Shown here one piece after another: positions 2,560 to 4,499 of a stretch of DNA of 32,700 nucleotides. The DNA is taken from contig JAAZXA010000048.1 of the NCBI GenBank assembly GCA_014240385.1, positions 1 to 32,700 on the forward strand, in the 5' to 3' direction. The position numbers were made by a program, and so were the translations under genes. The notes below the pieces were generated by a model, which saw only the letters and a list, made by a program, of their open reading frames with translations, did not search any database and was not told the DNA's origin. Numbering within the stretch: the first letter of the stretch is position 1; every line of letters begins with the position of its first letter. This DNA comes from Methanobacteriota archaeon (lineage in GTDB: Archaea > Thermoplasmatota > Poseidoniia > Poseidoniales > Poseidoniaceae).

Positions 2560-3042
2560 TCAGAGCATGTGTACGGCTTCTGACATAACGACGTCGCCGT
2601 TGTTCTTTACACGTACAGTTAGTGTGCAGTCAGCGTCGCAGAATGTGCCACCAGTGCTGGTAATGATGATTGTCTCACCCTTTTCCCAGCTGGTTCCGTC
2701 TTCTCCACCGTGTTGGCTAGCAACGCAGTCGCCACCAGATCCATCAGGGTTTGCACAGGTTGTTGGTACGCTGTCCTTGATGATCTCAATCTGGACAAGT
2801 GCCCAGTCAAGGTCTGCTCCGTTTCCGAAGGTCAAGGTCATTAGACCTGCGTCTGTTTCTACATCATCAGAGTGGTCAGCTGCGGTTAGCACATACATGC
2901 TTGGTCCGTCGCTTTGGTTTGAGCTAGCGAGATCGCTTGCCCATACGTATAGCACTCCTGCAAGAACCACAGTAATTGCGACCATCAAGATGGTAGCGAT
3001 AACCGGGCTCACGGCTTCTTCGTTCTTCATTTCGTTCTTCAT
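2560..3042 (-). CDS. Archaeal type IV pilin-like protein (Pilin_N family)
   Basis: A 160-residue secreted structural protein. Its N-terminus is a short charged leader (MKNEMKNEEA) followed by VSPVIATILMVAITVVLAGV, the class III signal/hydrophobic helix of archaeal pilins. Prepilin peptidase would be expected to cut near the A|V junction, and the helix would form the filament core. The rest is a beta-rich head with four cysteines in two close pairs (CANPDGSGGDC and CDADC), suitable for disulfides. The start at 3042 is supported by GGAGGA seven bases upstream; a second in-frame ATG at 3030 is less well placed. The gene has its own TATA-like box, a strong Shine-Dalgarno and a hairpin terminator, and it uses GC-ending codons more than its neighbours, so it is probably highly expressed as a single gene. 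No secretion ATPase or platform gene is nearby. Confidence 0.85.
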   Translation of the reverse strand: MKNEMKNEEAVSPVIATILMVAITVVLAGVLYVWASDLASSNQSDGPSMYVLTAADHSDDVETDAGLMTLTFGNGADLDWALVQIEIIKDSVPTTCANPDGSGGDCVASQHGGEDGTSWEKGETIIITSTGGTFCDADCTLTVRVKNNGDVVMSEAVHML

Positions 3043-3105: not shown

Positions 3106-3266
3106 TTGCCGCAGCACTTCGCGTAGACCCCCTGAAAACGCTCAACTGCAACCTATTTCCGAATTATGGTAGCGGGTAAATAATAACGCCAGATGGTGGT
3201 ACAGTCCATTTGTAAGCGCGATGAAATTTCATTTCGCGATATTCTATTGAGATTTTCATACAGTTT

Positions 3267-3310
3267 GCACTAAAAGTAACATCCTATTGTTTAGTGCTTT
3301 AAGATGTTAC
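3267..3310. repeat. Interleaved inverted repeats (H-type pseudoknot topology)
   Basis: GCACTAAA (3267-3274) pairs perfectly with TTTAGTGC (3290-3297), and GTAACATC (3276-3283) pairs perfectly with GATGTTAC (3303-3310). The order is A-B-A'-B', with spacers of 1, 6 and 5 bases. In RNA this is an H-type pseudoknot with two 8-bp stems. In DNA it is two dyads whose centres are 11 bp apart, about one helical turn, which would also suit stacked operator sites. Confidence 0.65.
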
Positions 3311-3335
3311 AAGTGATATTGGGACAAATCAAGGT

Positions 3336-3400
3336 GAACAGGGTGAGAGCCCAAGAAGAGGGGATGGGATGCACTCAACGAGAAACCCGCAGCCCTGTTC
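3336..3400. ncRNA. Candidate structured RNA stem (unassigned)
   Basis: GAACAGGG (3336-3343) and CCCTGTTC (3393-3400) are perfect complements closing a purine-rich 49-base interior that itself holds GGG-TGAGAG-CCC. ACTCA inside the loop (3373-3377) could also pair with TGAGT outside it (3405-3409), a second possible pseudoknot. The strand, ends and function are unknown. It lies 26 bases after the interleaved repeat and may belong to the same RNA. Confidence 0.35.
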
Positions 3401-3485
3401 AGTGTGAGTCAAAGGCCGATGGTGTATAATCGTTATGACCCGCACGTGTAAAATCAATCAATTAGGTATGTGAATAGCCCTTTCA

Positions 3486-4499
3486 TCATTCTACTGTCAA
3501 AACCTCTGGCCCACCAGGAGTTATCATTACAGTATGTTCGAATTGGCCAATCATTCCACCATCGGCACAACGTAGGCCGTGATAAGTTTCCAAGTAACGG
3601 ATTTGGATTAGTTTCTTAACCAGTGCGTTCCACTTACTTTTCCGGCTCATCTCGTCTGCTTCAGGGAATGGTTTCTCCAATAGCGGGAAGGCCCACCTTT
3701 CTGCGAAAGGTAATGTTCCATAGCGTTCTTCAAGATTCCTTGCTAGTTGAGCACCCAATGGTTTCAACTTTTTCTTTTGTAAAGCCTTTCTCCATTGAAC
3801 ATCACCAGTAACTCGGTAGATGTTTGAAGAGTTCCGCGGGGGGATGTTTTCGATCAAACCTTGTTCACCGGTTGTGCAGAAGGGTTCAACAGCATAGATT
3901 GAACCTTCTTCGACCACTCCCTTGAAGGCAGAATTTTCAGCACCACAACGATACGAGGGCACAGAAACCCCAGCATGTAATATCCATGGTTCCAATTGGT
4001 GGCCGCAAAGATTCCTAATCGGGTTGAATCCTGCGTCTATTGCAGATTGACCGGCTGCAGCTCCAACTTTATGCCAGGGTGTTCCGGGGTGCATGACTTC
4101 GATAGCGCAATCCCTTGCTTCTTTTGAAGCACGGATCTGGTCGGTATGTTCCCCTCCATTGCCAACTTCAACGGTCAAGGCATTATCACCAATACAACCA
4201 TGAATGTGAACACCGATATCCAACTTCACTAAGTCGCCTTTCTGGAAGACCATATCGCCTTCCCATCCCTCAGGTGGAGTTAATGCGTGGTCAGTAGTAT
4301 AGTGGGCGGCGATTTCATTGACAGAAATAGTAGAAGGGAAGGCAGGCTTACCCCCATGGCGGTGAATGTATCTTTCCGCAGACTCTATTACTTGATGCCA
4401 AGTTTTCCCTACCTGAATTTCATCTTTGATGGCTTCCAGTGCGCGGCGAGCAACATGACCTGCGTCACGCCAATGCTTCACCTCTCCCTCGACCTCCAT
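3486..4499 (-). CDS. map: Methionine aminopeptidase, type II
   Basis: A 337-residue cytosolic metalloprotease that removes the initiator methionine from nascent proteins. It has the pita-bread fold residues in order: H66 (NEIAAHYTT), metal ligands D94 and D105 in VKLDIGVHIHGCIGDNALT, H167 in CGHQLEPW, E205 in YAVEPFCTTGEQG and E321 in FEHTVMITPGGPEV. The insertion between the GHQ and E205 motifs and the helical segment around residues 235-300 mark it as the type II enzyme of archaea and eukaryotes. The ATG at 4499 lies inside the end of the upstream YrdC/Sua5 gene (22-base overlap), so the two are co-transcribed and probably translationally coupled. Both are core protein-synthesis functions. 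Confidence 0.95.
   Translation of the reverse strand: MEVEGEVKHWRDAGHVARRALEAIKDEIQVGKTWHQVIESAERYIHRHGGKPAFPSTISVNEIAAHYTTDHALTPPEGWEGDMVFQKGDLVKLDIGVHIHGCIGDNALTVEVGNGGEHTDQIRASKEARDCAIEVMHPGTPWHKVGAAAGQSAIDAGFNPIRNLCGHQLEPWILHAGVSVPSYRCGAENSAFKGVVEEGSIYAVEPFCTTGEQGLIENIPPRNSSNIYRVTGDVQWRKALQKKKLKPLGAQLARNLEERYGTLPFAERWAFPLLEKPFPEADEMSRKSKWNALVKKLIQIRYLETYHGLRCADGGMIGQFEHTVMITPGGPEVLTVE

Follow-up and report, generated by a model that had tools for sequence, protein, structure and literature searches.

A Conserved Small RNA of Thermoplasmatota Predicted to Pair with the Intercistronic Region of a Ribbon-Helix-Helix Operon

Results

A small RNA gene between map and a type IV pilin gene

The window, by which we mean the whole stretch of 32,700 nucleotides analyzed here, comes from a member of the Poseidoniaceae and contains an intergenic region between the genes for a type II methionyl aminopeptidase (map) and a type IV pilin. 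A search with positions 3200-3470 against 59 relatives revealed a strongly conserved short stretch, 3332-3400, that is matched in both families of the order Poseidoniales and that in many relatives is seen beside the 3' end of map. The alignment of 49 relatives and the covariance model R1 point to a small RNA (sRNA) gene on the minus strand, and the features of the region, in window coordinates, are as follows.

2560-3042, minus strand: type IV pilin gene, the other flank of the intergenic region
3267-3310, no strand assigned: interleaved inverted repeats reported previously; letters confirmed, not conserved, outside the conserved RNA
3330-3402, minus strand: predicted antisense sRNA gene, modelled core of ~70-75 nt; 88.3 bits and E 3e-19 with R1, and alignment of 49 relatives
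3336-3343, minus strand: closing stem P1, 3' arm CCCUGUUC; variants as for the 5' arm
3342-3349, minus strand: antisense block 1, CUCUCACC; its predicted partner is GGUGAGAG, immediately 3' of the stop codon in the ribbon-helix-helix (RHH) gene; lineage covariation, 0/5000
3358-3360, minus strand: apical stem P2, 3' arm CUC, partner of 3374-3376
3361-3373, minus strand: apical loop of 13 nt, invariant (UGCAUCCCAUCCC); forms antisense block 2, predicted to pair with the start-codon region of the target
3374-3376, minus strand: apical stem P2, 5' arm GAG; pairs with 3358-3360 around the 13-nt loop
3393-3400, minus strand: closing stem P1, 5' arm GAACAGGG; 8 bp, compensatory and G.U variants
3424-3437, minus strand: predicted BRE/TATA promoter CATAACGATTATAC; fixed spacing without indels in 49 genomes
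3486-4499, minus strand: map; NCBIfam match slightly below the curated cut-off

The predicted RNA begins at about 3400 and ends at or beyond 3330. The center of the TATA element lies ~26 nt before its 5' G, the first base of the closing stem, as expected in archaea for transcription starting at that base, and A or T accounts for 94-100% of the 49-relative alignment at positions -34, -33, and -29 to -26. Among the same 49 relatives P1 shows double compensatory changes at four of its eight pairs and, read in minus sense, a change from A-U to G-U at one pair in ten sequences, while P2 is mostly Watson-Crick or G.U across the sequences. By manual count there are 3 broken P1 cells when the alignment is read as minus-strand RNA versus 16 when it is read as plus-strand RNA; a plus-strand RNA, which the reading direction of the core had initially suggested to us, was dropped on the TATA position, the G.U pattern, and the T-runs. 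None of the 49 Poseidoniales sequences departs from the loop UGCAUCCCAUCCC, and neither do 39 sequences taken from other families of the Thermoplasmatota. The window sequence on its own gave an uninformative fold energy.

Rfam covariance models gave no match to the window region or to 14 related loci, and at locus L206 they gave chance-level matches only. Three assignments were rejected: RNase P RNA (no Rfam match, and RNase P RNA is on another contig), an SRP-like or other Rfam RNA (no Rfam match), and an H/ACA guide RNA (no ACA box 3' of the closing stem). The sequence after P1 is ACCU or ACUU in Poseidoniales and mostly varied and C/T-rich in the outer families. Two further observations concern the RNA gene and its surroundings. 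One Poseidoniales genome carries two tandem copies of the RNA ~1.3 kb apart (L031; G044:C4, 81062 and 82388), the second with a degenerate promoter and an altered stem. In the window itself, a strong G+C-rich inverted repeat, gcccccgaggcggc...gccgcctcgagggc, lies at 2447-2485 between the convergent glycosyltransferase-like and pilin genes and is terminator-like.

The interleaved inverted repeats at 3267-3310

The preliminary description had proposed an H-type pseudoknot, rarer than expected by chance, in a gene-free region upstream of the pilin. Its letters are exact: the A-B-A'-B' order, GCACTAAA-A-GTAACATC-CTATTG-TTTAGTGC-TTTAA-GATGTTAC, comprises two inverted repeats, each a perfect 8 bp, its loops measure 1, 6, and 5, and it is the sole 8+8 bp interleaved pair of the window when loops of up to 8, 12, and 12 are allowed. 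Dinucleotide shuffles bear out the rarity, with such an arrangement in 1 of 150 whole-window shuffles and in 1 of 5000 when the intergenic region alone was shuffled, statistics to be read with the caveat that the element was picked after the fact. The region does lie between protein genes (map and the pilin gene) but is not free of genes, given the minus-strand RNA gene predicted at 3330-3402.

The pseudoknot does not pass the check suggested along with it, conservation or compensated change of its stems in close relatives: it fails in the one relative that can be aligned and is absent elsewhere. The pseudoknot part of the query 3200-3470 found no match in the search of 59 relatives. G005, the closest relative (82% identity over 271 bp), is the only one that can be aligned at the pseudoknot, and there stem A is broken (AGTGTAAA/TTTAATGC) without simple compensation; of stem B, arm B' is kept while arm B has one mismatch and one G.U. 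The G005 region also carries an insertion, and a shifted 5-bp alternative pairing is present. A search of the corresponding flank in the other 48 relatives found a 6+6 bp pseudoknot in none. Given the 5-bp alternative and only two alignable sequences, the case against the pseudoknot is weak rather than closed; as judged from these sequences the element is real as letters and unsupported as function. A regulatory RNA, one of the roles originally suggested, does seem to occupy the same intergenic region, although it is not the pseudoknot: its predicted gene lies 20 bp away on the opposite strand and would be transcribed toward the repeats, which in the window species are possibly within its 3' read-through tail. 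We found nothing to connect the sRNA with the pilin: across order and phylum it is conserved regardless of that gene.

Distribution of the small RNA

Model R1 detects the RNA in 242 of 319 Poseidoniales genomes, in 31 of the 35 that are of high quality, and in all 22 genera. In a sample of the phylum Thermoplasmatota 157 of 293 genomes match, ~86 of the matching genomes (manual count) being outside Poseidoniales with E values of 1e-7 to 1e-3. These outer matches are nearly all single in a genome and full length, and many have a TATA element ~30 nt upstream and a 3' T-run, with closing stems that differ around the same loop; for these reasons we do not regard them as chance. A single-sequence helix search gave longer closing helices in the outer-family RNAs than in shuffles (mean 9.8 versus 7.1), the difference not being significant for every sequence. 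RNAalifold found no structure in the outer-family MAFFT alignment because the stems are misaligned in it. Family f16 has additional copies of the RNA, or sequences close to it (L251, G466:C11:7792; L244; L245), and some genomes thus hold paralogs.

A scan of all GTDB representative contigs for an exact 18-mer returned at least 118 stretches, and among those listed nearly all are from Thermoplasmatota, including Methanomassiliicoccales, or from plausible misnamed members; one Pirellulales record was discarded as a chance match (15 bits). The RNA is absent from the sister lineage f3 of the same class (G321, G386, G396, G447, G452, and G526) although more distant families have it, a sequence pattern that suggests loss.

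The putative target lies downstream of an RHH gene

The 14-mer GAGGGGATGGGATG, which is complementary to a segment of the RNA, has an exact second occurrence in most genera of the first family. Without exception this occurrence falls in the gap that opens at the stop codon of an RHH gene and reaches the ATG of a small downstream frame. Protein searches found orthologs of this CopG/CdrS-like RHH protein in 50 of 59 genomes, in both families, and all 50 have a recognizable antisense site in the post-stop gap. The RHH domain family PF01402 is above its cut-off for most of the RHH proteins tested, from Poseidoniales and outer families, and just below it for two. The RHH locus is separate from the RNA locus, on other contigs or at distant places, and the site has one fixed orientation relative to the RHH gene, opposite to that in the RNA. 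The RHH gene is absent from the assembly of the window's genome, which is 83% complete, and for the cognate pair of this genome we relied on G005, which has the same core RNA.

A protein-coding frame was considered for the motif beside the RHH gene and ruled out, as its reading frames differ between genera; the motif is therefore a nucleotide-level element. A conserved frame of ~40-80 amino acids with the motif G-F-x-G/A-L-R-x-R-A follows the RHH gene throughout Poseidoniales (L118-L167), and two of its proteins gave no match in Pfam. In Poseidoniales ftsZ is not beside the RHH gene and lies elsewhere.

Complementarity between the two loci follows lineage

In the 43 genomes with both partners, identity to the target is 12-18 of 19 nt in block 2 and 9-16 of 17 in block 1, with the block 2 placement wrong in one genome, G028, where the site is nonetheless visible. 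Lineage-specific changes are shared by both loci, namely AGGAGGAAGCC in genus g5, GGTGGAGACA in G035, CAGGGGCGAGAGACG in g15, and GATGGGATGCACAC in g17. Cognate duplexes have a predicted energy of -74.5 kcal/mol versus -66.1 (sd 1.1) when partners are swapped between genera, and none of 5000 permutations was as good. The same holds for block 1, which lies outside the invariant loop (cognate identity 11.9 versus 10.2 of 17, sd 0.23; 0/5000 permutations), and its mismatches are of the G.U-compatible type in 85 cases versus 33 of the A.C type; these comparisons are of ungapped blocks, a gapped local-alignment wobble test having given noise. Block 2 gave no covariation signal because it is invariant on the RNA side. 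Outside the order the swap test gave 12/5000, and with all families taken together 0/5000. Judged from these comparisons, RNA-target pairing is well supported.

Sites in other Thermoplasmatota families

Searching 30 outer genomes for the antisense 15-mer, two mismatches at most being allowed, gave ~7 places per genome, the sRNA gene counted, versus ~1 for the reversed control. In families f16, f34, f44, f21, and f37 the order is RHH gene, site, ftsZ, with the RHH gene directly upstream of ftsZ. The site in f16, f34, and f44 is ~60 nt before the ftsZ start and not on it; another stretch of the f16 gap, AACTACCAG, is complementary to CUGGUAGUU in the f16 RNA. In f21 as many as three sites stand in tandem. 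The f8 site is 4-5 nt after the RHH stop codon with no ftsZ behind. No site was found near ftsZ in f17, f30, and f29. The RHH protein of f16 (L252) has haloarchaeal CdrS as its best NCBIfam match, at 36.7 bits versus an equivalog cut-off of 100, and the CdrS search with the Poseidoniales RHH gave no match.

Some loci show additional arrangements. Between RHH and ftsZ at L269 (G339) the antisense site occurs three times in tandem, with hairpin-like repeats after the later copies. The complement of the loop also occurs inside GTGGGGGA...TCCCCCAC stem structures at L240, L248, L242, and L247, those at L242 and L247 being just after a gene that reads like ribosomal protein P1/L12. It is possible that these structures are further targets or sponge RNAs.

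Discussion

Based on the comparative data presented herein, we consider it highly probable that the minus strand of 3330-3402 encodes an antisense sRNA, conserved and acting in trans, which would mask the stretch between the cistrons of an RHH (cell-division) operon. We propose that the RNA is expressed from its own BRE/TATA promoter as a minus-strand transcript of ~70-75 nt and that in the cell it would pair with the intercistronic region after the RHH stop codon. Pairing would mask translation initiation of the downstream cistron or alter the stability of its mRNA, and the sRNA may thereby tune the output of the RHH operon, which in many relatives is a cell-division operon. From the position of the site, start-codon masking appears to fit Poseidoniales best, where the site reaches the downstream start codon. 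In f16, f34, and f44, with the site ~60 nt before ftsZ, simple start-codon masking cannot be the whole mechanism, and an effect on coupling or on stability is just as likely in such families. We infer the direction of regulation from sequence. More tentatively, and leaning slightly against it, we put forward a wider version in which an ancient, phylum-wide antisense RNA exerts post-transcriptional control over the RHH-ftsZ operon in Thermoplasmatota and also acts on several GGGAUGGGAUGCAC-bearing mRNAs.

The same pairing might have another outcome, in that the site on the RHH mRNA stabilizes or activates the message, or sponges the sRNA away from other targets. We judge this unlikely, to a degree that still leaves it a real contender. 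It would account for the several sites per outer genome and the tandem sites at some loci (three at L269), as well as for the f8 site, 4-5 nt past the RHH stop and away from ftsZ, and it has a precedent in sRNA154 of Methanosarcina mazei, which stabilizes some mRNAs and blocks others (PMC5867862). However, the Poseidoniales site ends on the downstream start codon, for which repression is the simplest outcome.

It is very improbable that a protein, perhaps that of the RHH gene, instead binds the conserved element as DNA at the two loci, with no RNA-RNA pairing involved. A shared core at the RNA gene and next to the RHH gene is what a binding site would predict, but such a site leaves aside the fixed promoter, the RNA-type compensatory and G.U changes in P1, the G.U-biased mismatches, the lineage-specific matches of 17 nt or more in two blocks, and the fixed orientation of the site at the RHH gene, opposite in the RNA. 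We give equally little credence to the idea that the repeats at 3267-3310 have a function of their own, as RNA or as two operator dyads ahead of the pilin gene: perfect stems, found in 1 of 150 window shuffles, and a minus-sense B hairpin followed by TTTT, which could end the sRNA transcript in the window species, are set against a stem A that is broken in G005 and an equivalent that is absent from 48 other relatives, in a comparison of only two alignable sequences. Least credible is a plus-strand RNA acting as a ribosome-binding-region decoy for a translational repressor protein, with CsrA/RsmZ-like logic, for although the RNA locus, read on its plus strand, looks like the target, the TATA/BRE and T-runs indicate the minus strand and more P1 pairs are broken in a plus RNA.

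With the antisense sRNA as the preferred reading, the RNA has two of the marks of a trans-encoded sRNA, namely its own promoter apart from the target and covarying complementarity to an intercistronic or initiation region. On this comparative evidence it is a new family of a known kind, the depth of conservation and the target being unusual. The RNA, its promoter, its target, and their lineage-by-lineage covariation were all obtained from comparative genomics alone, in a phylum that includes the abundant marine group II archaea and the gut and rumen Methanomassiliicoccales. If phylum-wide control of RHH-ftsZ and further mRNAs is true, this would be the most widely conserved archaeal trans-acting regulatory RNA so far; to our knowledge none more widely conserved is known.

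No earlier report of the 3330-3402 RNA was found in the literature searched, where Tan1 was compared by description only. Tan1 is an abundant 229-nt noncoding RNA of marine group II detected by RNA-seq, with, in the available text, six homologs at 75-79% identity and a complex structure (PMC5069720). It shares its archaeal group with the RNA described here but is three times longer. A review notes how difficult it is to find what intergenic sRNAs of archaea act on, very few of their targets having been characterized (PMC5867862). The sRNA41 of M. mazei masks ribosome-binding sites inside polycistronic mRNAs, and loop 2 of sRNA154 carries an anti-RBS sequence (PMC5867862). Both are intergenic, trans-encoded archaeal RNAs (PMC5867862), and the overall architecture predicted for the RNA described here resembles that of these RBS-masking sRNAs. 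They differ in that sRNA41 and sRNA154 are from Methanosarcina, with nitrogen and ACDS targets, whereas the present RNA is phylum-wide, has an invariant loop, and has an RHH/ftsZ-type target. M. mazei sRNA162, according to the available text, differs in both organism group and type of target gene, a carbon-source regulator (PMC3510493, PMC5867862).

A close parallel to the target is the haloarchaeal cdrS-ftsZ2 operon, which is described as widely conserved in archaea and whose known control, by CdrL and CdrS, is transcriptional (PMC7439475). As in that operon (PMC7439475), an RHH regulator gene is directly upstream of ftsZ in f16, f34, f44, f21, and f37. The systems differ in that Poseidoniales ftsZ lies elsewhere and that the searched text of PMC7439475 mentions no small RNA. 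The sRNA proposed here would provide a concrete RNA-level control point for an RHH regulator that adjoins ftsZ in many families, the haloarchaeal work having so far been at the level of transcription.
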